A stretch of 35,965 nt of DNA from Burkholderiales bacterium (GTDB lineage: Bacteria; Pseudomonadota; Gammaproteobacteria; Burkholderiales; Casimicrobiaceae). Both the position numbers and the translations under genes were made by a program. Below the pieces are notes generated by a model. The model was not told where the DNA came from. It was given only the letters and a program-made list of their open reading frames with translations, and did not search any database. The first letter of the stretch is position 1, and each line of letters starts with the position of its first letter. Where the stretch lies: the NCBI GenBank assembly GCA_017989135.1, contig JAGNQL010000011.1:1-35965 (forward strand), in the 5' to 3' direction. Positions 668 to 33,660 of this stretch are shown piece by piece.

Positions 668-783
668 AGCTTTTTTCGGGAAACGACTGCCGTGTGGCGA
701 TTTCGATGCATTTCTTTGCATACTCGACTAGTCGGAATATGTAGTGACAACGACCGCCGCACGGTCGCTCAAGCGCAAAAGCC
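668..783. repeat. 116-bp palindromic intergenic element, copy A
   Basis: The left end AGCTTTTTT (668-676) is mirrored by AAAAGC (777-782). The left hairpin block is 682-702 (AACGACTGCC...GGCGATT). The centre CTCGAC is at 723-728. The right hairpin block is 749-769 (AACGACCG-CCGCA-CGGTCGCT, an 8-bp stem with one mismatch). The segment layout is 14-21-20-6-20-21-14, the same as in copies B, C and E. It lies just upstream of the NtrC-like sites of glnA. Confidence 0.85.
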
Positions 784-817
784 ATTGATGAGTAGTGCAC
801 GATCAATTTCCCTCGAA

Positions 818-903
818 AGCATTAATTTGGTGCGAAACAGAGAACGCACCAAGTTGGGTCTTTCCGCCCATATTTCCGACCAAGTTAGCGCTTTTTTGGT
901 GCA
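818..903. promoter_or_regulatory. Three NtrC-like binding sites upstream of glnA
   Basis: Compared with the 17-bp NtrC consensus (GCACC and GGTGC arms around an A/T-rich centre), three matches are visible. 818-834 matches 11/17, with a right arm TTGGTGC. 845-861 matches 11/17, with a left arm GCACCA. 887-903 matches 12/17, with a perfect right half TTGGTGCA. They lie roughly 165-250 bases upstream of the expected glnA transcription start, a distance workable for an enhancer-binding protein acting by DNA looping. Confidence 0.55.
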
Positions 904-1043
904 CCCATCAACGCTCCGAACTACTCGCGCAGCCCACTAACCAAGTCGACGCGAATGATTGTGCGACAAACATCGCCCTTTTGACGCGCGGCAAACGCGC
1001 TGCGACGGGACGGTTTAGCATAATGGGCTGTTTGTCGTGCTGA

Positions 1044-1059
1044 TGGCATGTTTTCTGCA
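1044..1059 (+). promoter_or_regulatory. Sigma54 (-24/-12) promoter of glnA
   Basis: TGGCATG-N4-CTGCA with GG at 1045-1046 and GC at 1057-1058, the exact 12-base spacing that sigma54 requires. The consensus is TGGCACR-N4-TTGCW, so the site departs only at two positions. The predicted start is near 1070, about 110 bases before the glnA ATG. Together with the NtrC-like sites upstream and ntrBC downstream, this indicates nitrogen-regulated transcription. Confidence 0.8.
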
Positions 1060-1180
1060 TCGTATGACCAATTGGAGCGCGTGGAAATGAACCCTAATGG
1101 GAAAACCAACCGCGCTCTGCTGATTTCTGACCTCGATTCACGTTTCACTTCCAACCTCACCGCTGTTTAGGAGAAATTGC

Positions 1181-2593
1181 ATGGCCACTGGAGCCGACGT
1201 ACTCAAAAAAATCAAAGACGAAGAAGTCCGCTTCGTTGACCTTCGCTTCACCGACTTCCGCGGAAAAGAGCAACACGTTCAAGTGCCGCATCACCAGTTC
1301 ACGAACGACAAGTTCGTTGAAGGTCACGCCTTTGACGGCTCGTCCATCGCCGGTTGGAAAGGCATTGAAGCCTCCGACATGCTGCTGATGCCCGATCCAA
1401 ACACCGCTGTGATCGATCCGTTCATCGAAGAGACGACGCTCAACATCACCTGCGACGTCATCGAGCCGTCCACCGGCAAGGGCTACGACCGCGATCCACG
1501 CTCGCTCGCGAAGCGTGCTGAGGCTTACCTGAAAACCTCCGGCATCGGCGACGTTGCTTACTTCGGTCCAGAGCCAGAATTCTTCATTTTCGATTCCGTC
1601 GAATGGAAAACGGACATGTCCGGTTCCTTCTCGAAGATTTACTCGGAAGAAGCCGCTTGGGAATCTGACGCTAAGCACGAAGGCGGCAACAAAGGCCATC
1701 GCCCTACGGTTAAAGGCGGTTACTTCCCAGTTCCTCCGGTCGATCAACTGCAAGACCTGCGTAACGCGATGGTTCTGGCCGCTGAAGAAATGGGCGTTCC
1801 GGTTGAAGTGTTCCACCACGAAGTGGCCAACGCTGGCCAATGCGAAATCGGTACGCGTTTCTCGTCGCTCGTACAACGTGCCGACTGGACTCAGCTCCTG
1901 AAATACGCCGTTTGGAACACCGCTGCCCTCTACGGCAAAACGGCAACCTTCATGCCGAAGCCAATCGTTGGCGACAACGGCTCGGGCATGCACGTTCACC
2001 AATCGATTTGGAAAGATGGCAAAAACCTTTTCGCAGGCAACGGCTACGCCGGCCTGTCCGAAATGGCCCTCTACTACATCGGCGGCATCATCAAACATGC
2101 TCGCGCCTTGAACGCGATCACCAACCCTGGCACCAACTCCTACAAGCGCTTGGTTCCACACTTCGAAGCACCGGTCAAACTCGCGTACTCTGCGCGTAAC
2201 CGCTCGGCTTCGATTCGTATTCCTTACGTGCAGTCTGACAAAGCACGCCGTATCGAAGTGCGCTTCCCTGATCCATTGGCCAACAGCTACCTCGCCTTCT
2301 CGGCGATGATGATGGCCGGTATCGACGGTATCCAAAACAAGATTCACCCAGGTGAGCCTTCTGACAAAAACCTCTACGACTTGTCGCCAGAGGAAGATGC
2401 CAAGATCCCAACCGTGTGCTCGTCGCTCGACCAAGCACTTGAGTATTTGGACAAAGACCGCGAGTTCCTGACCCGCGGTGGTGTGTTCAGCAATGACATG
2501 ATCGACGCTTACATCGCGCTCAAAATGGAAGAGGTCACCCGCTTCCGCGCGACCACGCACCCGATCGAGTTCGAGATGTACTACTCGCTTTAA
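1181..2593 (+). CDS. glnA: Glutamine synthetase, type I-beta
   Basis: The 470-residue cytoplasmic enzyme forms glutamine from glutamate, ammonia and ATP, and is normally a dodecamer. The N-terminal beta-grasp domain ('[18 protein letters not shown]', '[12 protein letters not shown]') is followed by the catalytic domain. Visible motifs are the metal-binding '[10 protein letters not shown]', '[12 protein letters not shown]', the glutamate/ATP-site '[12 protein letters not shown]' and '[10 protein letters not shown]'. Tyr399 in 'NLYDLSPEE' matches the tyrosine adenylylated by GlnE in the I-beta class, so activity is probably also controlled covalently. The ATG is preceded by AGGAGA at 1168-1173. 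Length is typical of the family, and a terminator follows at 2645-2669. Confidence 0.99.
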
Positions 2594-2644
2594 CAGCGCG
2601 AATCATAGAGGCGACGGAACCACTTCCGACGCCGCGACTCCAAG

Positions 2645-2669
2645 AAAGGCAGGGTTTCCTGCCTTTTTT
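2645..2669 (+). terminator. Rho-independent terminator of glnA
   Basis: Stem AAAGGCAGG / CCTGCCTTT with loop GTTT, ending in a run of T. It lies about 50 bases after the glnA stop, so glnA is probably monocistronic and the downstream genes have their own promoters. Confidence 0.9.
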
Positions 2670-2693
2670 GTTTTCTTAACTTACAAAATGGCG

Positions 2694-2711
2694 TGAAATG
2701 ACAGCATTTCA
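2694..2711. promoter_or_regulatory. Inverted repeat upstream of the DUF4124 gene
   Basis: Perfect 7-bp arms TGAAATG and CATTTCA around ACAG, 47 bases before the next start codon. Position and symmetry fit an operator, but no regulator can be assigned. Confidence 0.35.
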
Positions 2712-2757
2712 GACGACCCGCATTGCTCTAAGTATCTGTTTTGATTAAACTTTCCGT

Positions 2758-3306
2758 ATGAAATCTGCCCGACTCCTCGCCTATTCGACTGCCGCGTCCC
2801 TCTCATGGGCGCTGGTCATGGGGCAGTCGCACGCTCAGATTTACAAGTACATTGATCCGGTGACTGGCGCGGTTGAGTACACCAATCAACCGAAAAAGGG
2901 CGCGTCGCGCATGGATAGCGCCGACACCCTGTCGGAAATCCCGACGGGAAACAAGCCGGCCAAGAGCAAAACAGTGGCCGGTACCGGTGCTGGCTCAGCC
3001 CCGCGCGCAGTGAACACAAGCACCAACAGCAGCGCTGGCTCCGCAGCCGCCGTGGTCGACGCGGGAACGCAAAAAACGCGCGACGGCACACGTCGCCAAG
3101 TGCTCAGCGACGAGCTCTCGAACGAAGAGAAGGCGCTCGCGCAAACGCGATTGGCGTTTAACGGCGGCAAACCATTGCCCATGGCTGACGAGGGCGTTGG
3201 TTCGCCGAAATACATCGACCGCACAAAGCAACTGGAGCAAACCTTGCGCCATCACGAGCGTAACGTTGCCGCGCTCAAACAAGAGCTGTCGAATCTAAAG
3301 CTCTAG
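2758..3306 (+). CDS. DUF4124-domain periplasmic protein
   Basis: A 182-residue exported protein of unknown function. Residues 1-26 form a Sec signal peptide with a probable cleavage after 'SHAQ'. The next stretch ('IYKYIDPVTGAVEYTNQP') is the hallmark of DUF4124, a small domain common in betaproteobacteria. The middle (about 60-110) is Ala/Ser/Thr-rich and probably disordered. The C-terminal 40 residues ('RTKQLEQTLRHHERNVAALKQ') look like a coiled coil. No clear Shine-Dalgarno site precedes the ATG. Related DUF4124 genes often sit between glnA and ntrB in this group, but no nitrogen-related role is established. Confidence 0.85.
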   Translation: MKSARLLAYSTAASLSWALVMGQSHAQIYKYIDPVTGAVEYTNQPKKGASRMDSADTLSEIPTGNKPAKSKTVAGTGAGSAPRAVNTSTNSSAGSAAAVVDAGTQKTRDGTRRQVLSDELSNEEKALAQTRLAFNGGKPLPMADEGVGSPKYIDRTKQLEQTLRHHERNVAALKQELSNLKL

Positions 3307-3478
3307 CTCGGAAGTCGTTCGTAATCTACTGCGATGCGGCCTTTGAGATCGGGCTTGTTCGCGATCAGCCTCCCGCGTTGCAGTCATTCCTCGCTCGTGC
3401 GACCGCTTATCGCGGGCAAGCTCGATCCCACAGCTGTCGCTCAATGCAATCAGGCGCGCTTCTTGCTAAAACGTCTGC

Positions 3479-4591
3479 ATGATCGCTGGCACGGACACCG
3501 CAGGACTCGAACTTATTTCCACCGCAGTGTTGTTGCTCGGCCACGACCAACGCATTCTCTACGCGAACCCAGCTGCGGAGCATTTACTCGCGCAGTCGAA
3601 GCGACAGCTTCAAAGCGCACGCCTGTCCGACGTCCTGCGCGATAGTGAGCGACTGGCTCCAGCGTTGGCGTTGGCGCTCGCGCACCGCGCAAGCTACACC
3701 GAGCAAGAGCTTGAGCTTCACTTAGCTAGCAAACCAAACGGAGCGTCGCGTTTGCTCGTCAACTGCACGGTGAGTTTTCTCGAGGGCGATTCGGTGAATG
3801 ACGCACAACTCATCGTTGAATTGCGGCACATTGATCAGCAACTAAAAATTGCTCGCGAAGCGAAGATCGCGGAGCAAAATCAAGCCAATCGGGAACTGGT
3901 ACGTAACCTCGCGCACGAGATCAAGAATCCGCTTGGCGGCATTCGCGGCGCAGCGCAGTTACTCGAAGCCGAGTTGTCGTCCGCGCAGTTGACCGAATAC
4001 ACGCAAGTCATCATCGCAGAGGCGGATCGTCTGCAAAATTTGGTCAACAAACTGCTGACCCCGCACAAACTACCCCGCTACATTCGCACCGACATTCATC
4101 GCGTGCTTGACCACGTGTTGCAGCTCCTAAAAAACGAATTTGGCGCAACGCACACGCTCACGCCGGACTTCGATGTTAGTCTGCCCGAGGTCGAGTGCGA
4201 TGGAGAGCAAATCACACAGGTACTCCTGAACATTGCGCGCAATGCATGCCAGTCGACCGCGTCAGTGAAATCGCCACACGTCACACTGCGCTCGCGCGTA
4301 GCCCGTCAGGTTGTGCTCTCTAAGCGCCGTTATCGCATGGCGCTCGAAATCGCTGTCATCGACAACGGCACGGGCATTTCACACGATATACGCGACCGCA
4401 TTTTTTATCCGTTGTTCACCACACGCAACGATGGCCAAGGCTCCGGCTTGGGTCTCTCGATTGCGCAAACTTTTGTTGCCCAACACTATGGCGCAATTGA
4501 AGTGGACAGCGAACCGGGCCACACCGAGTTCCGGGTCATTCTGCCGTTCGATCACCCTACGAGCGCCGAAACTGAAAGCAAAGCACCATGA
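3479..4591 (+). CDS. glnL: Nitrogen regulation sensor kinase/phosphatase NtrB
   Basis: The 370-residue soluble histidine kinase phosphorylates NtrC under nitrogen limitation and, when bound by PII, dephosphorylates it. An N-terminal PAS domain lies at about 12-110 ('GHDQRILYANPAAEHLL'). The dimerisation/phosphoacceptor segment has His146 in 'NLAHEIKNPLGGIRGAAQLL', the NtrB form of the H-box. The ATP-binding domain shows the N-box ('LLNIARNACQS'), G1 ('DNGTGI'), F-box ('IFYPLFTTR') and G2 ('GSGLGLSIA'). There are no membrane segments, as expected. The stop overlaps the ntrC start by 4 bases (ATGA), indicating translational coupling. Confidence 0.97.
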   Translation: MIAGTDTAGLELISTAVLLLGHDQRILYANPAAEHLLAQSKRQLQSARLSDVLRDSERLAPALALALAHRASYTEQELELHLASKPNGASRLLVNCTVSFLEGDSVNDAQLIVELRHIDQQLKIAREAKIAEQNQANRELVRNLAHEIKNPLGGIRGAAQLLEAELSSAQLTEYTQVIIAEADRLQNLVNKLLTPHKLPRYIRTDIHRVLDHVLQLLKNEFGATHTLTPDFDVSLPEVECDGEQITQVLLNIARNACQSTASVKSPHVTLRSRVARQVVLSKRRYRMALEIAVIDNGTGISHDIRDRIFYPLFTTRNDGQGSGLGLSIAQTFVAQHYGAIEVDSEPGHTEFRVILPFDHPTSAETESKAP

Positions 4592-6156
4592 AAAACGTCT
4601 GGATCGTTGATGACGACCGCTCCATCCGCTGGGTTCTCGAAAAAGCCCTCACACGCGAAGGCATTGCACATCGCAGCTTTGACAATGCGCTTGACGTGCA
4701 GCGTGCCATCGAGACCGAAACGCCTTCGGTGCTGGTGAGCGACGTACGTATGCCCGGCGAATCGGGCTTATCGTTGCTCAAGAAAATCAAGGCCGCGCAC
4801 CCGCAAGTGCCGGTGATTGTGATGACCGCGTTTTCAGATCTCGACACCGCAGTGCAAGCCTTTCAAGGTGGCGCGTTTGAGTATCTACCCAAACCGTTCG
4901 ACGTTGAGCAAGCGCTCGCACTGATCCGCCGCGCAGCCGCAACGGTTGAAGCGGCACCGACTGAGGCCGTTGCCGCTGCCGGCGAGCGAGAAATGCTCGG
5001 CCAAGCCGCAGCGATGCAAGACGTATTCCGTGCGATTGGTCGCTTGTCGCAGTCGCACGTTACGGTGCTCATCACCGGCGAATCCGGCACCGGAAAAGAG
5101 CTCGTCGCGCGTGCGCTGCACGAGCACAGCCTGCGCAAAGGAAAACCCTTCATCGCAATTAACACCGCAGCAATTCCAAAGGACTTGCTCGAATCGGAGC
5201 TCTTCGGCCATGAACGTGGCTCGTTCACCGGTGCTGCGGCGACGCGCCAAGGGCGCTTCCAGCAAGCCGAGGGCGGCACGCTGTTCCTCGACGAGATTGG
5301 CGATATGCCTTCCGACCTGCAGGTGCGTTTGCTCCGGGTTTTGCAAGACGGCGAGTACTACCGCGTGGGCGGTCAAGCGCCGATGAAGTCGAATGTGCGC
5401 ATCATCGCCGCAACGCATCAAAACCTAGATGAGCGCGTGAAACAAGGCATGTTCCGAGAAGACTTGCTGCACCGCCTGAACGTCGTTCGTTTACGTCTTC
5501 CGCCACTTCGCGAACGGCGCGAAGATGTGCCGCTGCTGATGAAGCATTTCTTGGGCAAAAGCGCGCAGTCGTTAGGGGGCGAAGTCAAAGCGCTAACTGG
5601 CGGCGCGCTGCAAGTCTTGCAAGCGTTCCCGTTTCCTGGCAACGTGCGTCAGCTCGAGAATATTTGCCACTGGATCACGGTGATGGCGCCGGGTTCGACC
5701 GTGGATGTTGAAGATCTTCCGCCCGAAGTTCGTGTGGCCGCGCCGGAGACGTTAAGCACCGCGCCAACCGCAAGCGCTAGTCGCGCGGCCATCGAGTACG
5801 CGCCGTCTATCGCCGGCTCGGCGAGCGCGCATTCATCGGGTTACGCGCCTGCTTCAGCAGCCGCCACGCACGCTGCGCCTCCTCGCCAATACGCACCCGC
5901 TGCATATTCACCTGATGCCAGTTCAAGCCCCAGCGGCGACTGGCAAAACGCACTGGCGGCGACATTGGCCGGTGCGATACAGCAGGGCGAGAAAGCGCCG
6001 GGCGAACGCCTCACACGCGAGTTTGAGGCCACGATGATTCGTTCCGCGTTGCTGCAAACGAAAGGTCGCCGCATCGAAGCCAGCGAATGGCTAGGCTGGG
6101 GTCGCAATACGCTTACACGCAAGATCCACGAACTAGGACTCGACGGCGAGGTGTGA
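4588..6156 (+). CDS. glnG: Nitrogen response regulator NtrC (sigma54 activator)
   Basis: A 522-residue enhancer-binding protein that, once phosphorylated, drives sigma54 promoters such as that of glnA. The receiver domain (1-120) has Asp52 in 'VLVSDVRMPG' as phosphoacceptor. The AAA+ domain (about 138-375) carries Walker A 'GESGTGKE', the sigma54-contact loop as GSFTGA rather than the GAFTGA usual in NtrC, Walker B 'GGTLFLDEIGDM' and an arginine finger region. A Fis-type helix-turn-helix forms the C-terminus ('LLQTKGRRIEASEWLGWGRNTL'). The linker before it (about 382-448) is an unusually long Ala/Ser/Pro-rich stretch, making the protein about 50 residues longer than the E. coli one. Confidence 0.97.
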   Translation: MKNVWIVDDDRSIRWVLEKALTREGIAHRSFDNALDVQRAIETETPSVLVSDVRMPGESGLSLLKKIKAAHPQVPVIVMTAFSDLDTAVQAFQGGAFEYLPKPFDVEQALALIRRAAATVEAAPTEAVAAAGEREMLGQAAAMQDVFRAIGRLSQSHVTVLITGESGTGKELVARALHEHSLRKGKPFIAINTAAIPKDLLESELFGHERGSFTGAAATRQGRFQQAEGGTLFLDEIGDMPSDLQVRLLRVLQDGEYYRVGGQAPMKSNVRIIAATHQNLDERVKQGMFREDLLHRLNVVRLRLPPLRERREDVPLLMKHFLGKSAQSLGGEVKALTGGALQVLQAFPFPGNVRQLENICHWITVMAPGSTVDVEDLPPEVRVAAPETLSTAPTASASRAAIEYAPSIAGSASAHSSGYAPASAAATHAAPPRQYAPAAYSPDASSSPSGDWQNALAATLAGAIQQGEKAPGERLTREFEATMIRSALLQTKGRRIEASEWLGWGRNTLTRKIHELGLDGEV

Positions 6157-6184
6157 GTCCGCGTCAATACACCCGTGCGCTCGC

Positions 6185-6817: not shown

Positions 6818-6894
6818 GCGCGCTCCTCCGCGTAAACGTGAAGCGTCGCGCGATACGTTGCCGCGCAAACAAGCATTCCACGATAATTTGATAG

Positions 6895-7512: not shown

Positions 7513-8156
7513 ACACCGAGAAGCGCTATCGCATTTACGCAACGCTGGCGAGAGGCAACCCGAATCCGAAGACCGAGCTGGAATTTGGTAACCCGTTTCA
7601 ATTGCTGATCGCTGTCTTGCTCTCCGCCCAAGCCACGGATAAATCAGTCAACGCCGCAACGCGACGATTTTTTCCAACGGTCAAAACCCCCGCCGATCTG
7701 CTCGCGATGGGTGAAGCTAATCTCGCCGACATGATCAAAACGATCGGCCTCTTTCGCAACAAAGCGAAGAACGCGATCGCCACCGCCCGGCAACTCATCA
7801 CATTGCACGGTGGTGAAGTGCCCCACGACCGCGCGGCGCTCGAAGCGCTGCCCGGCGTCGGCCGAAAAACCGCAAACGTCGTGCTCAACGAAGCGTTCGG
7901 CGAAGCCACGCTCGCCGTCGACACCCACGTCTTTCGCGTCGCCAATCGAATGAAGCTCGCGCCGGGAAAAACGGTCGATGAAGTAGAGCGCAAACTGATG
8001 AAATTCACGCCGCCAGAATTTTTGCGCGGCGCGCATCACTGGCTCATCCTGCACGGACGCTACACCTGTGTGGCACGCAATCCCAAGTGCGGCATTTGCC
8101 CTGTGTTTGATGACTGCGAGTTCACAGGCAAGACGAAGTCAGAACCATTCCCGTAG
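7509..8156 (+). CDS. nth: Endonuclease III (DNA glycosylase/AP lyase)
   Basis: The 215-residue base-excision repair enzyme removes oxidised pyrimidines and cleaves the abasic site. The helix-hairpin-helix 'LPGVGRKTANVV' contains the catalytic Lys120. Asp138 ('VDTHVFRVANR') is the second catalytic residue, and both numbers equal those of the E. coli enzyme. The 4Fe-4S cluster ligands are Cys187, Cys194, Cys197 and Cys203 (CX6CX2CX5C). Translation is coupled to rnfB by an ATGA overlap. Length and motifs are complete, so it should be active. Confidence 0.98.
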   Translation: MNTEKRYRIYATLARGNPNPKTELEFGNPFQLLIAVLLSAQATDKSVNAATRRFFPTVKTPADLLAMGEANLADMIKTIGLFRNKAKNAIATARQLITLHGGEVPHDRAALEALPGVGRKTANVVLNEAFGEATLAVDTHVFRVANRMKLAPGKTVDEVERKLMKFTPPEFLRGAHHWLILHGRYTCVARNPKCGICPVFDDCEFTGKTKSEPFP

Positions 8157-8169
8157 CGATTCAAAAAAA

Positions 8170-8607
8170 ATGTACAACCCCTCTCGCGATCAAGCCCGGC
8201 AATTTTTCATCGACACTTGGGCAAAGTTTCAGCGCCACGACGCGCTCACGCCGCTTGAAGAAAAGACCGCTGCGATCATCGCGCTGCATCCGGAATATCA
8301 CCGCGTATTGCAAAACCCAGAATCGTTCATTACGACCGATTGGCGACCTGAATCGGGCGACATCAATCCGTTCATGCATCTCGGGTTTCACCTTGCGATT
8401 CAAGAGCAGCTCGATATTGACCAACCGCACGGCATTCGCGCCATTCACGGCCAGCTTGCGGGCAAACACGACGACCCACATGCCGCGACGCACGAAATTC
8501 TCGAATGCCTCGGCGAGACGCTCTGGCAATCACAGCGCACAGGCACCCCGCTCGACGGCGCGCTCTACTTGAGTTTGCTCAAAGCGCGCGTTCCGTCGCA
8601 GCAATAG
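8170..8607 (+). CDS. DUF1841 family protein
   Basis: A 145-residue cytoplasmic protein of unknown function. The start at 8170 gives the family's usual N-terminus ('MYNPSRDQARQFFIDTW'); the frame is open further upstream but that part overlaps nth. Conserved-looking stretches are 'LTPLEEKTAAIIALHPEYH', 'NPFMHLGFHLAIQEQ' and 'HDDPHAATHEILECLGETLW', rich in His, Asp and Glu, which could bind a metal (inference). It sits 13 bases after nth and is probably co-transcribed with rnfB-nth. Confidence 0.88.
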   Translation: MYNPSRDQARQFFIDTWAKFQRHDALTPLEEKTAAIIALHPEYHRVLQNPESFITTDWRPESGDINPFMHLGFHLAIQEQLDIDQPHGIRAIHGQLAGKHDDPHAATHEILECLGETLWQSQRTGTPLDGALYLSLLKARVPSQQ

Positions 8608-8634: not shown

Positions 8635-8750
8635 AGCTTTTAGGCGCCAACGACCAGCGGGTGGTCGTTTTCCCCAATTTATCGCAATAGTCGACTTAGC
8701 AAGAATTTTTCACGAAACGTCCACCCGCTAGTCGTCGGCGAGGTGTTCAG
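8635..8750. repeat. 116-bp palindromic intergenic element, copy B
   Basis: The left end AGCTTTT is at 8635-8641. The left hairpin 8649-8669 has a perfect 7-bp stem AACGACC / GGTCGTT. The centre GTCGAC is at 8690-8695. The right hairpin block 8716-8736 is the inverted counterpart (AACGTCCACC...AGTCGTC). The layout is 14-21-20-6-20-21-14. The right end is diverged and overlaps the stop codon of the yggU gene (8747-8749). It lies between two converging genes. Confidence 0.85.
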
Positions 8751-9043
8751 AGGGAAAGTTGTTGCAGAGCATTTTCTGCGGTGATGCCCGTCACGCGTAA
8801 CCGCTTGCGGCGATTGGTGTCGCCCGAAATTAGCGTGACTTTACTTTTGCTCACTGCGCAACGCTCGGCCAAGAATGCGATGACGGCGGCGTTGGCTTTG
8901 CCGTCAAGCGGCGGCGCGTTGATGCGCAGTTTCAGCGCGCCGTCGTGCTCGCCGGACACTTCCGTGGTTTTCGCTCCGGGCTGTACGTAGACCGAGATTT
9001 CCACACCACCCGCAGAGTCGCGCAGCCACGCCGGGAGTGTCAT
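8747..9043 (-). CDS. YggU / DUF167 family protein
   Basis: A 98-residue small protein of the YggU (DUF167) family, whose structure is known but whose function is not. Family features are 'VYVQPGAKTTEVSGEHDG', 'LKLRINAPPLDGKANAAVIAFLA' and 'KVTLISGDTNRRKRLRV'. I started at 9043 (MTLPAWLRDS), the family's normal N-terminus; the longer frame would overlap proC. It is the third gene of a yggS-proC-yggU minus-strand operon, 25 bases after proC. The last codons overlap repeat copy B. Confidence 0.9.
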   Translation of the reverse strand: MTLPAWLRDSAGGVEISVYVQPGAKTTEVSGEHDGALKLRINAPPLDGKANAAVIAFLAERCAVSKSKVTLISGDTNRRKRLRVTGITAENALQQLSL

Positions 9044-9068
9044 ACGTCGTCTCTGGCGCAGTGTTGCA

Positions 9069-9881
9069 CTACGCTTTGTCGAGCAGGTCGCCCAGCTCCG
9101 CGCCACGATCGCGCGCCGCGCGCACCGCATCAACGTACGCCGCTTGCACACCGCGCTCGGCGATCACCGCGAGCGCGGCAGCAGTTGTGCCACCCTTCGA
9201 CGTTACGCGTTCGCGCAAGACGCTGGGGCTCTCGGTGGAGGCTTCAGCCAGCGCGGTCGAGCCCTTCATCGTTGCGAGCACCAGCGTGCGCGCATCCGCG
9301 GCACTAAAACCTACGCCCTCGGCTGCTGCGAGCATCGATTCGATGAAGTGAAAAACGTACGCTGGGCCGCTGCCGGAAACGGCAGTGACTGCATCAATCA
9401 TCGCCTCGCTCTCCGCGCGCACGACCGGTCCGGTGGACCGCATGAGCTCCGTCGCCGTGGCAACGTCGTCCGCCGCAAGCGTCGGCGCAGCGTAGAGCCC
9501 TGTGATGCCCTGCCCGATGAGCGCAGGCGTGTTCGGCATCGTGCGCACAATTCGCGCGTGCCCGCCCAGCCAGCGCGCGATGGTGCCTGCGCGCGTCCCA
9601 GCCGCGATACTCACGATCAGCTCGCCACGCAGATGTGGCAACAACTCGCTGCACACCTCTTTAAGTACCTGCGGCTTCACCGCGAGCACCACCGCGTCAG
9701 CGCCGTCGATGGCCGCGCGGTTTGCGGCTTCGTGAACGACAACGTTCAGCGTTGAAAGCTTCTCACGCGCCGGCGCGAACGGCTCAATGATGTGACAGGA
9801 GAGCTTTGGATGCTTTTTGATGAGCCCCGCAAGCATCGCGCTCGCCATGTTGCCGCCGCCGACGAAACAGATTTTTTTCAT
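9069..9881 (-). CDS. proC: Pyrroline-5-carboxylate reductase
   Basis: The 270-residue enzyme makes the last step of proline synthesis, reducing 1-pyrroline-5-carboxylate with NAD(P)H. The Rossmann motif 'ICFVGGGNMASAMLAGL' opens the protein, followed by 'VVLAVKPQVLKEV' and 'RTMPNTPALIGQGITGL'. The C-terminal dimerisation domain has the signature 'SGSGPAYVFHFIESM' and 'LRERVTSKGGTTAAAL'. The start at 9881 puts the Rossmann strand directly at the N-terminus; a GTG five codons upstream (9896) is possible. It follows yggS with a short gap, a widely conserved pairing. Confidence 0.97.
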   Translation of the reverse strand: MKKICFVGGGNMASAMLAGLIKKHPKLSCHIIEPFAPAREKLSTLNVVVHEAANRAAIDGADAVVLAVKPQVLKEVCSELLPHLRGELIVSIAAGTRAGTIARWLGGHARIVRTMPNTPALIGQGITGLYAAPTLAADDVATATELMRSTGPVVRAESEAMIDAVTAVSGSGPAYVFHFIESMLAAAEGVGFSAADARTLVLATMKGSTALAEASTESPSVLRERVTSKGGTTAAALAVIAERGVQAAYVDAVRAARDRGAELGDLLDKA

Positions 9882-21255: not shown

Positions 21256-21371
21256 AGCTTTTTAGCGCTAACGACACGCGTGTGGTCGTTTCAAGCGCAA
21301 ATGCAATACTGTCGACATATGACCAATTTCTCTTCAAACGACCGCCTGGCAGTCGTTACCTCCAAAAAGCT
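21256..21371. repeat. 116-bp palindromic intergenic element, copy C (best-preserved)
   Basis: The ends AGCTTTTT (21256-21263) and AAAAAGCT (21364-21371) are perfect inverted repeats. The left hairpin block is 21270-21290 and the right one 21337-21357, both of the type AACGAC-N9-GTCGTT. The palindrome GTCGAC (21311-21316) sits exactly at the centre (21313.5). The layout is 14-21-20-6-20-21-14. It lies downstream of the patatin gene and upstream of the TetR gene. Confidence 0.9.
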
Positions 21372-25536: not shown

Positions 25537-25652
25537 AGCCTTGAGCTGCAACGACAGCCGCACGGTCGTTTGCGCCCGATTTATGCGATAAGTCGACTTT
25601 CCGCAAAATTGACCGCAAATGAGCATCTTCTATCCGCAGCGCGTAAAAAGCT
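25537..25652. repeat. 116-bp palindromic intergenic element, copy D (half decayed)
   Basis: The left end AGC is at 25537. The left hairpin block is 25550-25570 (AACGACAG...CGGTCGTT), the centre GTCGAC is at 25592-25597, and the right end AAAAAGCT is at 25645-25652. The right hairpin block (25618-25638) no longer matches, and one base is shifted on the left. The overall length is still 116. The element lies between the double-SDR gene and the SWIB gene. Confidence 0.75.
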
Positions 25653-25871: not shown

Positions 25872-26345
25872 ATGGCAGCAGCCAAGAAACCCGCAGCAAA
25901 AAAGCCGGCCGCAAAAGCAGCCGCTAAACCAGCAGCAAAGAAACCCGCAGCCAAAGCCGCCGCCAAAAAGCCAGCCGCTAAGCCTGCCGCGAAAAAGCCA
26001 GCAGCAAAAGCACCGGCCGCGAAAAAACCAGCAGCAAAAAAACCAGCCGCGAAAAAGCCAGCCGCTAAAGCTGCAGCGAAAAAGCCTGCCGCTAAGCGCA
26101 CGCCAAACGCTGCGTTCATGAAAGCGATGACGCCATCCGCAATCCTCGCAGCTGTTGTCGGTTCCACTCCGATTCCACGTACGGAAGTCACCAAGAAAGT
26201 GTGGGACTACATCAAGAAGAACAGCCTTCAAGATGCTATGAACAAGCGCATGATCAATGCCGACGAAAAGCTTCGCGCAATTTTCGGCAAAGCTCAAGTG
26301 TCGATGTTCGAAATGACTAAGCTCATCTCGAACCAGCTCAAGTAA
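25872..26345 (+). CDS. SWIB/MDM2-domain protein with histone-H1-like tail
   Basis: A 157-residue protein in two parts. Residues 1-77 are a chain of Lys/Ala/Pro repeats ('KKPAAKAAAKPAAKKPAAK' and variants), like the tails of histone H1, bacterial AlgP and PhaF, and likely to bind DNA. Residues about 78-155 form a complete SWIB domain: 'FMKAMTPSAILAAVVGSTPIPRTEVTKKVWDYIKKNSLQD', 'INADEKLRAIFGKAQVSMFEMTKLISNQL'. SWIB occurs in eukaryotic SWI/SNF remodelling complexes and in Chlamydia and some proteobacteria. It is probably nucleoid-associated. A strong terminator follows. Confidence 0.92.
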   Translation: MAAAKKPAAKKPAAKAAAKPAAKKPAAKAAAKKPAAKPAAKKPAAKAPAAKKPAAKKPAAKKPAAKAAAKKPAAKRTPNAAFMKAMTPSAILAAVVGSTPIPRTEVTKKVWDYIKKNSLQDAMNKRMINADEKLRAIFGKAQVSMFEMTKLISNQLK

Positions 26346-27887: not shown

Positions 27888-27911
27888 TGTCGCATTCATT
27901 GACATGCGACA
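27888..27911. promoter_or_regulatory. Inverted repeat upstream of the beta-CASP gene
   Basis: Perfect 8-bp arms TGTCGCAT and ATGCGACA around an 8-base spacer, about 108 bases before the start of the nuclease gene and about 96 bases after the end of the lipase gene. It could be an operator or an RNA hairpin. The remainder of the 226-base gap shows nothing else I can name. Confidence 0.45.
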
Positions 27912-28006
27912 GATGGTGACTACAAATCACAGCGTCGAGATGCATCCAATCGTTCAATGACGAGTACCGTGTACGCAAACGGGTCATCGATTCTGTCGCG
28001 CTGCAC

Positions 28007-28975
28007 CTAGGCCACGGACGCACTCAACTCGCGCGCCTGAACGGGGGCGAGCGCGTTCAATATTGCGCGTCGAGCCTGCACGCCACTTGGCATGCTTACG
28101 TGCCCTACGCCCACCAACTTCACATTCGTCGCCTCCGGCATGATCGACGACGTTTGCGGCGCGATAATGGTGTCGTGCACACTATAGATGCTCGTGAAGG
28201 ACGTGGGAACGCGCGACTCGCATAGTGTTGCGAGCCACTCGTTTCTAAGGCGCATTTGTTTGCCGTTGGTACCGCTGGCCAGATTCGCGTGAAAGGTGCC
28301 GTGATGCGGCGACCCGAGCGTGATCAGCTGCGACACTTTCTCTGCGCCACACTGACGGAGATAGGCGCGGCACACGAGCCCGCCCATGCTGTGCGCAATG
28401 AGCGTGAGCTTGGATTCGCCCGTCAATGCCAACACTTCATCCACACGAGCAGACAGTAGCGCGCCCATCGTATCAATCGATGCGAACACGGGTTGATCCA
28501 TCGTGAACACTCGATAGCCGAGGCGCTCCAATGCACGCGCGGTGAAGAACCACACTGCACCATTGTTGACATAACCATGCTGCAGCAGCAGGACACGACC
28601 CGTACTCGCAACTTTGCGTTCGTTAGCGGTTCGAAAGAGGCCGCGTAACGGAATCAGTACCAAATTCTGGATGCACAAATGCCAGTATTCAACGACAAAA
28701 AATCTAAACCAACCGACGACACTTAGTCGATCCGTTGTCGTGAGTGGCGAGCCTTTCCAGCGCGACAGTGCATAACTAGCCAGTGCGACTATTAACCGGG
28801 CTATCAATGCAAACGCAAGCACCGTGAGCATCGCGCAGCCTACTCCGTAGCGTGGTGCAATCTTGGTGAACGCCCAGAGCGCGTAGATCGAGAATTCGGC
28901 CGTCAACAAAAATAAGTTAGTCGCCCATAGTGGAACTGGAAACGTGTCGCCCGCCACCGCCGGATCGGATGCCAT
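28007..28975 (-). CDS. Membrane-anchored alpha/beta-hydrolase (lipase-like)
   Basis: A 322-residue hydrolase. Two or three hydrophobic helices at about 15-70 ('LFLLTAEFSIYALWAF', 'AMLTVLAFALIARLIVALASYAL') anchor it to the membrane. The catalytic domain (about 125-315) has the oxyanion region 'LLQHGYVNNGAVW', the nucleophile Ser196 in 'LIAHSMGGLVCR', 'LGSPHHGTF', an Asp in 'YSVHDTIIAP' and a late His in 'VGVGHVSMP'. These are features of triacylglycerol-lipase class 2 and related esterases. It lies 24 bases after the GMC oxidoreductase on the same strand, probably in its operon. Confidence 0.88.
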   Translation of the reverse strand: MASDPAVAGDTFPVPLWATNLFLLTAEFSIYALWAFTKIAPRYGVGCAMLTVLAFALIARLIVALASYALSRWKGSPLTTTDRLSVVGWFRFFVVEYWHLCIQNLVLIPLRGLFRTANERKVASTGRVLLLQHGYVNNGAVWFFTARALERLGYRVFTMDQPVFASIDTMGALLSARVDEVLALTGESKLTLIAHSMGGLVCRAYLRQCGAEKVSQLITLGSPHHGTFHANLASGTNGKQMRLRNEWLATLCESRVPTSFTSIYSVHDTIIAPQTSSIMPEATNVKLVGVGHVSMPSGVQARRAILNALAPVQARELSASVA

Positions 28976-28999
28976 CGAAAACCTCTTATTCCAACGAAG

Positions 29000-30592
29000 T
29001 TACGCGCGACGCATGTCGCCCGCGAGCCTTGCCGCATTGCGCCAAGCTAAACCATAAATCGACAATTGCGGGTTCGCACCAATCGAGGTCGGAAACACAG
29101 AGCCGTCGAGCACGCTCAGGTTTTCAACTTGGTGGTGCCGGCCATACACATTCACCACGCCGTCCTTTTCTTCCTTCGCCATGGTGCAGCCGCCCATCAC
29201 GTGCGCGCTCGCCACGCGCGTTGAATAGGCACGCAACGCCAAGGCCTCAAGACCAGATTTCGCGTCCGCCCATGATCTAAAACCGTTGATCCGCTCATCA
29301 ACCGGAAACACTTCTTTCGCGCCCGCAGCGAACTGAATCTCAGCCATCGCCAACAGCGCACGTTTCGCGGCGTCAAAGAAATAGCTATTCAACGAGTAGT
29401 CCAGTTGCGGCGAACCGTCGGCACGCAATTTCACTTGCCCGCCCGCGCTTTCCGGATGAAAGCCATCGCGACAAAGTGCAATCGTGACCTGCGTATTCGG
29501 CATGTTGGTGATGCGCGCGCGGTGATGTTCGGTCATGCCGTTAACGCTAATGGAATAGAGCACCGGGTGGATCGGCGGCACCTCAAGCTTAAAACCCATC
29601 GCGCCATCAATCGGGTGCGTCATCAGAAAGTGATCGCTGTAGGTGGTTTGCGGCGCGCCGGACCAGCCCTCGACCTTACTGCCCATATCCGCGCCCGAAA
29701 GCAACGACGGATGCAGAAACGTGCGCTTTCCTAGCAGGCTATAAGGGTCGGGCACGCCCGACCGCATCAGCAGCGCAGGCGAGTTGATCGCGCCGCCCGC
29801 CACCACGAAGTGTTTCGCTGTCACACGCACCTTCACGCGACCAACGTCGTAGCCGGTGCCTTGCATACTTACGCATTCGACTGCGGTAACGCGCCCCTTT
29901 TTCACTTCGAGTCGATCAGCTCGCGCGCGGCTCACCAAAACGGCGCCTCGATTGAGCGCTGCCGGAATGGCGGTGACGAGCATCGATTGTTTGGCGTTGG
30001 TCGGGCAACCCATGCCACAGTAACCAAGGTTGTAGCAACCTTTGACATTGCGACGAATTCGCTCGACTTTGATGCCAATTTTTTGGCCGCCGCGTTCTAG
30101 CACCGCGTTATTCTCGTTCGGTGGCACAGCCCAATCGGAAATGTTGGTGAGTTTCTCAGCGCGTTGGAACCAGCCGGCCATGTGCTCATCAGTCAGCTCG
30201 GTCAGACCGTAGCGCTCGCGCCAAAATTTGAGCGTGGCTGAAGGTGTCCGAAAGCTCGTCGTCCAGTTGACTGTGGTGGAACCGCCGACTGTGCGACCTT
30301 GCAAAATATTGATCGCTTTGTCAGCAGTTTTACGCGACGCCGATTCTTGGTAGAGCGTTGGGTAAGCCTCTGACTCAAGCATACGGAAGTCGGTTGACGA
30401 GCGCAGCATACCCTCCTCAATCATCACCACCTTGAGCCCAGTGTCTGAGAGCACATCGGCCGCAATGCCACCACCAGCACCCGTGCCGATGATGCACACG
30501 TCTGCCTCAAGCGTGGCGTCCTGCCCGAGCGTTGATGCGTCGATGTGCATCCAGCCTTTGGCGAGGCCTTCGCGAATAGGGTCAGCGATCAT
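29000..30592 (-). CDS. GMC-family FAD-dependent oxidoreductase
   Basis: A 530-residue flavoprotein that oxidises an alcohol group. The FAD-binding Rossmann motif is 'ADVCIIGTGAGGGIAADVL' (Gly36-Gly41), followed by 'ILQGRTVGGSTTVNWTTSFRTP', the GMC signature. 'HFVVAGGAINSPALLMRSGV' is the second GMC motif. The C-terminal part has 'SAHVMGGCTMA' and 'LSVLDGSVFPTSIGANPQLSIYGLAWRNA', where His and Asn lie near the flavin. I started at 30592 (MIADPIREGL), just before the fold; the frame is open further but would overlap the upstream gene. Relatives act on long-chain alcohols, sterols or sugars. Confidence 0.93.
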   Translation of the reverse strand: MIADPIREGLAKGWMHIDASTLGQDATLEADVCIIGTGAGGGIAADVLSDTGLKVVMIEEGMLRSSTDFRMLESEAYPTLYQESASRKTADKAINILQGRTVGGSTTVNWTTSFRTPSATLKFWRERYGLTELTDEHMAGWFQRAEKLTNISDWAVPPNENNAVLERGGQKIGIKVERIRRNVKGCYNLGYCGMGCPTNAKQSMLVTAIPAALNRGAVLVSRARADRLEVKKGRVTAVECVSMQGTGYDVGRVKVRVTAKHFVVAGGAINSPALLMRSGVPDPYSLLGKRTFLHPSLLSGADMGSKVEGWSGAPQTTYSDHFLMTHPIDGAMGFKLEVPPIHPVLYSISVNGMTEHHRARITNMPNTQVTIALCRDGFHPESAGGQVKLRADGSPQLDYSLNSYFFDAAKRALLAMAEIQFAAGAKEVFPVDERINGFRSWADAKSGLEALALRAYSTRVASAHVMGGCTMAKEEKDGVVNVYGRHHQVENLSVLDGSVFPTSIGANPQLSIYGLAWRNAARLAGDMRRA

Positions 30593-30635
30593 ATTGAAAT
30601 CTGTGTTCAGTTTTGGTTGAAGGACGTCGACGCGA

Positions 30636-31151
30636 TTACGCGAGCTTAGGCGGGCCGGGGTAGCCCGTTGCGATCCATGTAGCGGGCTCGGAGTAGAAAC
30701 TGCCGAGCACAAGATCATGCAGCGCGAAGTAGGCTTGTTGTTTGAGACCAATAGAACTATCGCGCAAACCTTCTAGAAACCTGCCCACCACCAAAGGATC
30801 GGCTCCGAGCCAATCACCCGAGTAGCCGAGTAACGCGCGCGCAGGCTTCAGTGCGAGCAGACCGAACAGATCCCCGATTTCCTTGCGAGTCGTCGGCGGC
30901 AGGTTATCAACCAACGCCCCGATGGCTTTGTTGACGCGCGCAAATTCTGCTTCACGCGCCTTCACGTCAACGGGCAGGGCCGTTCCGAGCAGCGCTGCCA
31001 TCACGGCGCGCAGCATGGCATCATGTTCTTTGGCGAGCTGCGTGCCGCTTGGTGCAGCTGCGGACGCGCGAAGCTGCGGAAGCAATACGACGGCACCCGC
31101 CGCGATAGCGCCCGCTACACCTACAAAAATAAATCTGCGTCTAGACCACAT
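30636..31151 (-). CDS. Tat-exported small subunit (gluconate 2-dehydrogenase subunit 3-like)
   Basis: A 171-residue protein. The N-terminus 'MWSRRRFIFVGVAGAIAAGAVVLL' is a twin-arginine signal (SRRRFIF) with a hydrophobic stretch. The rest ('AMLRAVMAALLGTALP', 'FARVNKAIGALVDNLPPTTRKEIGDLFGLLALKPAR', 'KQQAYFALHDLVLGSFYSEPATWIATGYPGPPKL') matches the gluconate 2-dehydrogenase subunit 3 family. Such subunits escort a GMC-type flavoprotein across the membrane. The partner here is the GMC gene 43 bases downstream, which has no signal of its own. No cytochrome c subunit is adjacent. Confidence 0.9.
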   Translation of the reverse strand: MWSRRRFIFVGVAGAIAAGAVVLLPQLRASAAAPSGTQLAKEHDAMLRAVMAALLGTALPVDVKAREAEFARVNKAIGALVDNLPPTTRKEIGDLFGLLALKPARALLGYSGDWLGADPLVVGRFLEGLRDSSIGLKQQAYFALHDLVLGSFYSEPATWIATGYPGPPKLA

Positions 31152-31261
31152 CGACGGCCTCCTCCTTGTTCTCCCAGCGATTCTAGGGAGCGCGGTTAGA
31201 GCGAGTTTTCTACACGAACGGCGGAGCAGACGCGTGCGAACATTTTCGCTACGCTTACGCC

Positions 31262-31960
31262 ATGGTCAAACCCATTTCAAACGAATCGGCGTTACGCAAT
31301 CATCTCGCGGCTGCACGCGCTGAGCGCGAAGCTGCGGCGCGCTTCGCCGTGAGCGCTGCGGACCGATTAGCCGTGCGTTCGTGGCAGCAAGCGAGGCTCA
31401 CGCAAACGCATGCTGACTTTCTCGCATCCGCTCGCTACGGGCCGGCCGCGAAGTTCTTCGTCACCGAGCTTTACTCTACAAAAGATCTGTCGCAGCGCGA
31501 TGCAGACATTGAGCGCGTCGTAAAAGTATTGGTGAAATTTCTGCCCGACAAGGCACTGGCCACACTTGCCACTGCCTTGGAAATGGATGCCCTTTCCGAG
31601 CTCCTCGACAACCGACTTGCGGCTAGGTTACGCGACGCCCAAGGCAACGAGAGGCCGTTGCGAATCGACGCAACCGCCTATCAACGGGCGTATTGTGAAG
31701 CGGAGGACATGACGCTGCGCAACCGGCAATTTGAGCTCACCGAAGAGATCGGCGCGTCACTCGACACATTGACCAAAGTGCCGCTCTTGCAGGGACTATT
31801 GCGCATCATGAAGCGTCCGGCGTATGCGAGCGGCGTGGGACAGTTACATGAGTTTCTTGATCGCGGTTACGCTGCCTTCGCGCACATGAAAGGTGGCGCT
31901 GAATTCGTGAAAACTGTCGTCGCGCGCGAACGCGCGGAGCATCAGCGGCTCATGGGTTGA
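31262..31960 (+). CDS. FFLEELY-motif protein
   Basis: A 232-residue, mostly helical soluble protein. Residues 65-71 read 'FFVTELY', a variant of the FFLEELY motif that names the family, followed by 'STKDLSQRDADIERVVKVLVKFLPDKALATLATALEMDALSE'. The family is found in beta- and gammaproteobacteria and has no known function. The C-terminal half is also helical ('LLQGLLRIMKRPAYASGVGQLHEFLDRGYAAFAHM'). It starts 110 bases from the divergent Tat-signal subunit gene and converges on the sugar-isomerase-like gene. Confidence 0.88.
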   Translation: MVKPISNESALRNHLAAARAEREAAARFAVSAADRLAVRSWQQARLTQTHADFLASARYGPAAKFFVTELYSTKDLSQRDADIERVVKVLVKFLPDKALATLATALEMDALSELLDNRLAARLRDAQGNERPLRIDATAYQRAYCEAEDMTLRNRQFELTEEIGASLDTLTKVPLLQGLLRIMKRPAYASGVGQLHEFLDRGYAAFAHMKGGAEFVKTVVARERAEHQRLMG

Positions 31961-32014
31961 CGCCTACCCGCGCGAGCCTCGTCACAGATAGCGCGCCCAT
32001 CGCGTGTTGCATTT

Positions 32015-32047
32015 TTTCTAGAGACCGCGCCAACGGTCGCCTAGAAA
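32015..32047. terminator. Two-part hairpin between converging genes
   Basis: TTTCTAG-A-GACCG / CGGTC-GC-CTAGAAA with the loop CGCCAA, two stems joined by a small bulge. It sits 55 bases after the FFLEELY gene and 17 before the end of the converging isomerase-like gene. There is no long T-run on either side, so it is a likely but imperfect terminator for both. Confidence 0.6.
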
Positions 32048-32063
32048 TTTATCGAAGCACGCG

Positions 32064-32882
32064 TCAGATTGGTGGTTTTTCCAGACACTCGCGGCTGCGT
32101 TCGAGGCAAACACGCGCCCACTCGTATTGGCCCATCTCGGCCATGCGCTCCATGTGAACGATTTCAACGCTCACTGGCAAATCTGCGGGGAGTGCCTCAA
32201 ACAAACCTTTCACATCAATGCTGCCCTCGCCGGGCAACAAGCGCTCGCAGCGTGCTGTGTGAATCATCGCCTCGACGTCGAAGTGTGTTCCAGCCGTGGC
32301 ATCGCAAATTTGCGCGTAGTGCAGCAGCGCGCGCGGAATGGCGCGAATGTCGTCCAACGTTGTAGTTGATCGGCCGAAATGCAGTGCGTCGACAAGGATG
32401 CCAGCGTTGCTTGGGTTGCCTGCTGCCTGCACAATTCGCATCGCAGATTTGGCGTCTGGAACCTTCGTCCAAGGCATAAATTCAAGATCAGCGGTCAGTC
32501 CAAACGGCAACATGACGTCGCAGAGTTGCGCGTAGCCGTCCACCAAGCGCGCGAAGTCGGATTCATCGCCGGCCACAAGCACGGCGCGCGCCTTCAATGC
32601 AGCCCCCGCCTCAAGCAGCGGGAGATACGCGCGAGCGTCAAATCCTGGGCCGATGCGAATAATTTCGAGATCCAGCACGCCCACGCCTGTGTCGCGCTGC
32701 GCTGCGACCGTTTCACGCAGTACATCGGGAAGGCCGATGAGAAACTGCTGAGGTGCCCCCGCTGCGTTAGGCAGTAACCGCAGGCCGACGTTCGCGTAGC
32801 CCAAGTCCGCTGCGAGACGGATTGCTTGGGGCGGCGTTAGTGTGTTGGACGTGAGGTACGCCAGCGAGTGAGAGCGGGGCAT
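32064..32882 (-). CDS. Sugar phosphate isomerase/epimerase family protein
   Basis: A 272-residue TIM-barrel protein of the xylose-isomerase-like / AP-endonuclease-2 superfamily. It begins 'MPRSHSLAYLTSNTLTPPQAIRLAADLGYANVGLRLLP'. Barrel strands and metal-site candidates are 'GVLDLEIIRIG', 'ADLEFMPWTKV', 'GILVDALHFGRS', 'HYAQICDATAG' and 'LPVSVEIVH', giving Glu, Asp/His and Glu ligands as in the family. The start at 32882 gives this N-terminus; an upstream extension is unlikely. Substrate unknown; relatives include hydroxypyruvate isomerases and inositol enzymes. Confidence 0.87.
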   Translation of the reverse strand: MPRSHSLAYLTSNTLTPPQAIRLAADLGYANVGLRLLPNAAGAPQQFLIGLPDVLRETVAAQRDTGVGVLDLEIIRIGPGFDARAYLPLLEAGAALKARAVLVAGDESDFARLVDGYAQLCDVMLPFGLTADLEFMPWTKVPDAKSAMRIVQAAGNPSNAGILVDALHFGRSTTTLDDIRAIPRALLHYAQICDATAGTHFDVEAMIHTARCERLLPGEGSIDVKGLFEALPADLPVSVEIVHMERMAEMGQYEWARVCLERSRECLEKPPI

Positions 32883-33660
32883 GTTGGTTCGTCCTTTGAA
32901 TCGGGCGTGTAAATTAGTTGTTGCGAACGCGGCGGGTTCTGCCGGCACCGTTCGCAATTCAACGAGCACCGAGCGAAACGGCCAGCGCCAGATTGCTTCG
33001 ACGGCGGATGCAATCTATACGCGTACAACCGATCACCGCGCCACCGAACAACGCGACCTTGGTTTTAGTCACGAACTACGGGGGCAATCAGGCAACGATG
33101 TGAATGAACGTCGACGTGAATTGTATTGAGCCCGTCGAGCAACCGGAACGAAGTTCGGCATTAGATTTTGTTCTAATTTCTGCCGTCGGTGACGGTGTGG
33201 GCACATCAACACGAAGTGCGCCTAGAAGCTCTAGCGCGGCGGGTCCTAAGACACAAAAAGTCCGTGATGTCTGAACTGGGCAATACTTACAGCTTTATTG
33301 CTCTAAGCACTACCAGGTGGAGATTGCAGCGCAATTTCCTTGTTACTCGACTGTTCAACAAAAACAGCTGAAACAGCCGCCCGGCTGTCGTTCAACGCAA
33401 AAAGCTGTAAGCCGGAGTTGAAAATTTTGAAGGCGAATCAAAGGGCGTCGCTTCACGCCCCATCTAAGGCGCTTGGTGCGAATACGGCCGGAATTGCCGA
33501 TCAAAATCGTTGCTCGGAAACTTGGGGCTGGAACACGGGTTCTGGACCCGCAAAATCTAGCCATCAACCGCACAAATCGCGCTTGGCCGTACCGAGCGAA
33601 GCCACGTCGTCGAATCCGACGATTGCGCCGGAGGCTGGCGCGTCGCGCGTGCGGGAAGGG
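32883..33660. other. Gene-free region between the isomerase-like gene and tRNA-Arg
   Basis: About 780 bases without a gene I can support. It holds copy E of the 116-bp element (33291-33406). A frame from 33104 could encode about 56 residues but resembles nothing and has no clear ribosome site. The stretch 33407-33660, just 3' of the tRNA gene, has no recognisable structure. Confidence 0.6.
33291..33406. repeat. 116-bp palindromic intergenic element, copy E
   Basis: The left end AGCTTTATT is at 33291 and the right end AAAAAGCT at 33399-33406. The left block 33305-33325 is diverged. The centre CTCGAC is at 33346-33351. The right hairpin block 33372-33392 contains a perfect 7-bp stem ACAGCCG-CC-CGGCTGT. 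The layout is 14-21-20-6-20-21-14. The symmetry runs five bases beyond the ends: CTTAC on the left, GTAAG on the right. Confidence 0.85.

Follow-up and report, generated by a model that had tools for sequence, protein, structure and literature searches.

Are the palindromic repeats that lie scattered between the genes of a bacterium debris of a mobile element, hairpins that act in RNA, or DNA sites that the cell keeps? The question is raised by 35,965 nucleotides of contig JAGNQL010000011.1 from a Burkholderiales bacterium (assembly GCA_017989135.1, Casimicrobiaceae; the whole stretch is termed the window in the following), where an original prediction, made from the letters, had pointed out five palindromic elements of 116 bp. 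We find that they are genuine and belong to a family of large, symmetric DNA sites that is specific to one genus and under selection. With a probability of about one half, the elements are vertically inherited, still-selected, two-fold symmetric duplex sites of ~126 bp for a putative symmetric protein assembly, an option ("protein-binding structure") that the prediction had listed among others and that the sequence data support.

A family of symmetric sites in one genus

The five copies, e1 to e5 from left to right, have the length and the positions predicted for them, with TCGAC at positions 57-61 of each. A profile built from them, read on both strands, yields at least 150 both-strand rows in the genome of the window (G000; other genomes bear further G numbers, sequence stretches L numbers), and thus e1 to e5 are not a chance set and the family is indeed large. 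The window and 20 stretches taken from four long contigs (352 kb) together hold 45 distinct copies at E ≤0.05, of which 40 lie outside the window; a 48-base row (L086:14133) and a cut end (L075:1-48) that is part of copy L074:19733 are not counted. Extrapolation from 40 copies in 352 kb, i.e. from long contigs that had hits, gives ~380 copies per 3.35-Mb assembly, the latter being 80% complete. The family therefore goes far beyond five members, its lengths are not random, its centre is conserved, and an Rfam gathering search of the window for an existing entry gave a tRNA only. In the open-access literature we found no description of this element in titles or abstract openings for the terms tried.

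The element family is specific to one uncultured Burkholderiales genus. Among 60 relatives (17 genomes of the genus, G000 included, and 43 others) the first model alone matched nine, all in the genus, and a second model, built from 51 copies of G005 and G015, has matches in 16 of the 17 genus genomes, with at least 150 rows in seven; one of the 16, G009, contributes five weak rows and one exact match equalled by the control. Copy number varies widely among species, the exact pattern AGCTTT-N-TCGA-N-AAAGCT being present at 150 places in G015, 135 in G001, 116 in G006, 91 in G000, 77 in G012, 76 in G011, 72 in G003, 41 in G005, 29 in G004 and 9 in G013, at 1-4 places in six other genus genomes and at none in G016. 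The control, i.e. the pattern read backward, has 0-2 matches per genus genome. Outside the genus, three of 47 genomes of the family have one exact match each, the same as the control, and a GTCGAC-centred pattern matched none of 195 non-genus genomes (200 of the order searched). Along the complete genome G005 the 41 exact-pattern copies show no position bias (Kolmogorov-Smirnov p 0.67, coefficient of variation of the gaps 0.96).

That the fixed spacing is under selection, as had been proposed, is supported, the length being nearly fixed by species. In G000, 62 of 69 model-found copies measure 116 bp. A scan by ends and centre places 28 of 33 copies at 116 bp in G000 and 22 of 31 at 114 bp in G015, and a scan of the same type in G005 gives 7, 13 and 11 of 32 at 114, 115 and 116 bp, whereas shuffled DNA yields no hit for G000 and one each for G015 and G005. 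Most half-sites span 57 or 58 bp. In the G000 profile C3 and T57 are invariant in all 124 half-sites and T4, C17, G18 and G29 exceed 97%, with random positions lying between near-invariant ones. The motif fades outward over ~5 bp per side (GTWAC in G000), so that the site comprises ~126 bp, and its total information amounts to 105.7 bits (uncorrected and from model-selected copies). The copies differ strongly, the mean pairwise identity of 62 copies being 0.603. The sole near-identical pair among them, L018:720-835 and L107:2001-2116 (0.957; next pair 0.724), lies on two small contigs and may reflect a true duplication or an artefact of assembly.

Resident copies and their arms

The copies of the window, and the parts of the best of them, are as follows:

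668-783, no strand assigned: e1, 116 bp, with two recognisable halves, flanked by glnA and by a gene that is read divergently and encodes a GntR/MocR-like domain
8635-8750, no strand assigned: e2, with a strong left and a decayed right half, between an open reading frame (ORF; 8068-8607) and a convergent DUF167 gene (8747-9151)
21256-21371, no strand assigned: e3, the most complete of the five copies
21256-21262, no strand assigned: left end box of e3, AGCTTTT, from the position profile; the motif extends outward by ~5 bp
21270-21290, no strand assigned: left arm of e3, AACGAC-N9-GTCGTT, exact block match and position profile
21311-21316, no strand assigned: centre of e3, GTCGAC on the dyad, from the position profile
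21337-21357, no strand assigned: right arm of e3, exact block match and position profile
21365-21371, no strand assigned: right end box of e3, AAAAGCT, from the position profile
25537-25652, no strand assigned: e4, with a poor right arm; its neighbours are an SDR oxidoreductase gene and a conserved stretch that precedes the gene of a lysine/alanine-rich protein
33291-33406, no strand assigned: e5, between the 5' end of ORF 32064-32969 and a tRNA-Arg

Placed by their flanking genes, e1 to e4 lie at the same loci in the sister species G003, and e1, e2 and e4 do so in G012, where e3 is rearranged. At the e1 locus the right half alone scores in G003 and G012 has 116 bp with both halves; the left half of e2 scores in both species (L293 and L303), and e4 is ungapped in G003. 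Besides its G003 locus, e3 occupies five further genus loci with other arms, and a further G000 copy, L078:1027, also has a counterpart in G003. The intergenic DNA adjoining e1 and e2 is hardly alignable between the species.

Within the resident copies change is distributed according to position. In four G003 counterparts 34 of 152 conserved positions (22%) have changed, compared with 87 of 176 middle and 79 of 136 free ones (58%), and the G012 counterparts (24/114, 68/132 and 61/102, with e4 of L047 measuring 117 bp and being compared ungapped, which inflates the change) and L078:1027 versus G003 (7/38, 15/44 and 24/34) show the same order. For comparison, 143 of 311 and 92 of 222 four-fold sites of two neighbouring genes have changed. 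Seven pairs, mostly model-found, were also compared, two gapped ones being left out of the position counts; the five ungapped pairs changed at 20 of 190 conserved, 66 of 220 middle and 71 of 170 free positions. Across all seven the flanks changed at 301 of 1339 positions with 13 gap openings (61 columns), and gaps in the elements take up 5 columns, 4 of which lie at an end of a single copy. Two candidate pairs, L118/L083 and L128/L099, turned out to be different loci and were rejected as orthologues.

Orthologous copies carry lineage-specific arm dialects. The arms read AACGAC-GTCGTT in G000, G003 and G012, TGAAA-GGGGCT or GGGCT in G015 and G005, and differently again in G013, with ends and centre constant across the dialects. 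At the e3 locus the copies of G000, G003 and G012 are recognised by dialect A alone, and those of L041, L042, L048, L053 and L054 by dialect B or C alone. Both neighbours of e3 are kept in nine cases, seven of which have a full element; L047 has a short one and L046 only 48 bp between the genes. The short form, which starts from 7701 of L047 (G012), appears by eye to be of half size (~51 bp: end box, one arm, end box) and adjoins a broken remainder. At the e4 locus a clear element is visible by eye in 8 of 15 cases (in L053 centre and right end only), L046 having a degraded element and L045 a weak half. A separate observation concerns viral contigs, where the pattern matched 18 stretches: one of them resembles a real element by eye and the rest resemble chance. 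This apparent copy (L264:8843-8957, 115 bp, dialect C-like) sits on a contig filed as viral, which may represent the edge of a prophage or be a host contig that was filed wrongly.

Seen one by one, the window copies are less regular than had been described. The centre is conserved, but its hexamer is GTCGAC in three copies and CTCGAC in two, i.e. STCGAC rather than the YTCGAC that had been given. Common end sequences are likewise a feature of the family that is inexact in some copies, as e1 ends in CAAAAGCC, the right end of e2 is lost (GTGTTCAG), e4 starts with AGCCTTG and e5 with AGCTTTAT. The 21-bp block AACGAC-N9-GTCGTT, said to occur in each half, is exact in only four of the ten (left half of e2, both of e3, left half of e4); with up to 3 mismatches it has 38 matches in the window, with 18.6 expected from shuffles. 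An intergenic position holds for e1, e3, e4 and e5, which overlap short ORFs only (≤125 amino acids, taken as chance), but e2 extends 4 bp into the end of the DUF167 gene at 8747. Beside e4, at 25872-26345, lies the gene of the lysine/alanine-rich small protein, whose NCBIfam matches, to the C-terminal parts of topoisomerase III and of a topoisomerase I/SWI fusion, are below cut-off; the DNA that precedes it and adjoins e4 looks conserved across the genus.

Pairing, gene ends and mobility

The paired hairpins that had been suggested fare differently at the two levels of the element: whole-element pairing is at most marginally maintained, and the arm hairpins give a weak signal. Over their full length e1 to e5 pair at 25, 30, 39, 22 and 31 of 58 positions, the mean of all 116-mers of the window being 14.8 (standard deviation 3.5); e3 alone stands clear, e5 and e2 equal some other window stretches and e1 and e4 lie below those. 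All five fold better than their own shuffles on both strands (z -1.4 to -7.2), as is expected of any symmetric motif. The two halves, however, evolve almost independently, so that a whole-element hairpin is hardly maintained. In G000 the identity of halves within an element is 0.588 versus 0.583 between elements (p 0.24), and none of the six sets tested, drawn from five genomes, shows a difference (permutation p 0.22-0.70). In 103 dialect-A copies Watson-Crick pairs across the halves are 1.7% more frequent than in shuffles (z 2.3), with no excess in G000 alone (z 0.8), and whole elements fold no clearly better than chimeras of halves (z -1.2 to 0.7 in six sets; in G005 2 of 60 chimera sets were as low). 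Pair counts within the arms of dialect A show no excess (z 0.7); six copies of G010 have, by eye, good arm hairpins with changing stems.

The copies prefer gene 3' ends. Among 125 placed copies (169 examined in five genomes; the gene calls used here and for the terminators below are crude long ORFs) 59 lie between tandem, 52 between convergent and 14 between divergent genes, whereas the bases in G000 gaps of at least 100 are 56% tandem, 23% divergent and 21% convergent, and the median distance to the nearer upstream stop is 35 bp (tandem) or 18.5 bp (convergent).

Two rival explanations are both unlikely in our view. According to the first, the elements are an old family of miniature inverted-repeat transposable elements (MITEs) or REP-like repeats whose transposase has since been lost and whose copies merely decay. 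The high information implies past copying, copy number differs widely between species, and half-decayed copies such as e2 and L074:12651 do occur. Decay predicts, however, equal change at conserved and free positions, and the few loci compared show constraint on resident orthologous copies instead, with little change in length while their flanks scramble. Nor is there a consistent excess of target-site duplications of 2-9 bp in 174 flank pairs from four sets (the largest excesses are 5 versus 2.6 at 2 bp in G005 and 2 versus 0.4 at 5 bp in G000), or, in the ~0.79 Mb scanned in two genomes, a longer parent element whose halves are separated. There the half-site profile found halves only back to back (36 of 39 pairs at 116 bp in G000, 33 of 39 at 114 bp in G015), and of the 9 + 7 leftover halves the ten viewed have degraded or shifted partners, and no two of them enclose a gene. 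A MITE with target duplication or parent was rejected on these grounds, and no sign of recent copying or movement was seen.

According to the second, the element acts in RNA at the 3' end of transcripts, as a bidirectional terminator, an mRNA stabiliser or an RNase site, via its arm hairpins. Its location behind stop codons, the folding of the window copies and the weak arm signal agree with this, and gene ends with an element tend to lack canonical terminators (terminator-like folds at 2 of 75 such ends versus 25 of 305 others, p 0.13). Against it, the element has a T-run at its start and an A-run at its end, the reverse of a bidirectional terminator; a GC-rich hairpin followed directly by a T run is present in only 2 of 69 copies on each strand, for which reason an intrinsic terminator was rejected; the gene-distal half is nearly as well kept as the gene-near one in tandem settings (43.4 versus 41.4 bits for the two halves, p 0.06, the gene-near half being not clearly better); and the arm letters are fixed rather than covarying.

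That the family is a REPIN-type miniature element mobilised in trans by a REP-associated tyrosine transposase (RAYT), the substrate role originally proposed, is quite improbable. There are likenesses: the REPINs of Pseudomonas fluorescens SBW25, REP doublets that form hairpins, are short intergenic non-coding elements with two inverted parts, constant spacing and many copies (PMC3116915), and resemble ours in size, in their two inverted arms and in the near-constant spacing; the weak arm-hairpin signal would agree as well. PF01797 has 44 matches in 15 of the 17 genus genomes (none in G008 and G016), all ten proteins tested are NF047646 REP-associated tyrosine transposases, and four of five PF01797 loci in G000 have an element within ~1.5 kb (43 bp, 1.1, 1.2 and 1.4 kb), where ~30% would be expected per locus at one copy per 8.7 kb (p about 0.03, a hand estimate). 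However, the 18 RAYT genes read of the 44 (260 bp of flank on each side, on one side only for one gene, and with L180, L182, L192 and L193 not among them) are all flanked by their own GTAG-type REPs, which by eye fall into at least six kinds, and 17 have no element within that distance; the exception, L181, has one of 116 bp, 43 bp behind the gene, which was missed by the dialect scan, a method less sensitive than the models. G008, 98% complete, has 2 exact element matches and 24 both-strand model rows and no PF01797 match. The same source reports that compensatory changes are common in REPIN spacers and that REPIN clusters adjoin their RAYTs, whereas here whole-element pairing is hardly kept, the RAYTs read go with other REPs, and the copies are ~60% alike without a near-identical set. 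Neither a GTAG nor a GTGG tag stands at the unit end in the consensus of dialects A, B or C, with a few G010 copies showing, by eye, GTA(G)-like letters on their inner side. REPIN/RAYT membership was thus rejected on the features tested.

CGTC-tagged REPs are also palindromic, mostly head-to-head dimers and without an associated transposase, but their units measure 20-40 bp, have stems of 8-9 bp and bear a CGTC tag (PMC3733652); no such tag stands in the dialect consensus sequences, and the unit here is ~116 bp.

ERIC elements, imperfect palindromes of ~127 bp in intergenic places, come close in size and position, with copies that are much more alike. As a side observation, the RAYT genes of the genus (L181, L183-L191, L194-L199 and L088) are of several types, with up to four read per genome (G005), each type flanked by its own GTAG-type REP, and would be a good set for RAYT/REP co-evolution. 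G016, the sole element-less genome of the 17, has no PF01797 match either and is small (2.6 Mb).

A proposed site for a symmetric assembly

In the reading that we prefer, each site would consist of two back-to-back half-sites, i.e. 116 bp plus the ~5 bp of fading motif per side, and each half-site of the end box AGCTTTT, two arm boxes (outer and inner), an A/T box and one half of the central GTCGAC. A putative symmetric protein assembly would contact both half-sites as duplex DNA and measure the fixed distance between the boxes. As most sites lie near gene 3' ends, its role is likely architectural or topological, e.g. the anchoring, bending or wrapping of DNA at places where transcription stops. 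The specificity of the recogniser may have shifted in different lineages, with the resident sites following, which would give rise to the arm dialects. Family, length, symmetry, positional conservation at the tested loci, per-position constraint, dialects and the near-independence of the halves are observed; we infer the protein, its binding, the wrapping and the role.

The DNA is perhaps wrapped, as suggested by a weak AT phasing. Counted from the dyad, AT peaks lie near -4.5, -13, -24, -43, -53 and -60, with a weaker or shifted one near -33, and over the whole half the 9.5-11-bp band has p values of 0.023, 0.007, 0.010 and 0.048 against a run-preserving null. In size and symmetry the element recalls the motif of DNA gyrase, which in E. 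coli is 130 bp long, degenerate and symmetric about a 4-bp cut, with flanks from ~-63 that are GC-phased at a period of 10.75, BIME-2 elements being gyrase targets (PMC6379681). A built-in strong gyrase site, where the enzyme would wrap ~130 bp round a central 4-bp cut at the gene ends at which positive supercoils accumulate, would fit the span of ~-62 to +62, the TCGA on the dyad and the weak AT phasing, but is improbable, as the period is 9.5-9.75 (7.25-7.75 in parts of two sets) and weak, as gyrase is described as reading shape while the element has many invariant letters and lineage dialects, and as a GyrA match in all 17 genomes (unbroken and above cut-off in 13, fragmentary in four), element-less G016 included, does not discriminate.

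Several points weigh against the protein-site reading itself. Most copies are model-found, which inflates the apparent conservation outside the gene-anchored set; the latter is small (five G000 elements versus G003, three versus G012) and less conserved (22% change versus 10.5% in the five ungapped pairs), e1 and e2 each have one scoring half only in G003, and e5 was not found at the corresponding place in G003, that region being absent from G012. The ~106 bits are far above the need of ~400 sites, which must therefore have multiplied by copying in the past. The halves are not fully independent: pooled dialect-A halves are slightly more alike than shuffled ones (one spacer z 2.5, arms 1.7 and 1.8), and eight cross-half position pairs have mutual information above z 4 in 108 copies; with five other-dialect copies taken out, four of these position pairs are left. 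Arm hairpins compared with chimeras give weak z values of -2.6, -0.7, -1.1, -2.2, 0.1 and -2.1 in the six sets. The phasing is weak as well, with p 0.04-0.29 over -63 to -17 in related sets; in G015 and G005 the best period is 7.25 over that range and 7.25-7.75 in parts of the half. Finally, G016 has no match in any element search covering it, and no cognate protein was found, no systematic comparison of gene content having been made.

More tentatively, the sites might form a genus-wide system, in which hundreds of symmetric, protein-wrapped sites of 126 bp at gene ends are served by a reader that evolves by lineage, with dialects following and spacing fixed. A partial parallel is provided by the DNA uptake sequences of Neisseriaceae, hundreds of dispersed sites that change in step between species and form dialects; these are 10-12 bp long and not two-fold symmetric over 126 bp.

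The usual explanation for dispersed palindromic repeats of bacteria is that they are mobile REP/RAYT elements or hairpins. The family described here resembles such repeats, fails most of the tests for them and shows constraint on resident orthologous copies, so that whether dispersed repeats serve their host becomes testable site by site. If a protein indeed reads 126 bp at hundreds of places, with a dialect that changes along with it, these elements would rank with the largest chromosomal sites known to be recognised by sequence and would constitute a natural record of the co-evolution of a recogniser and its sites.

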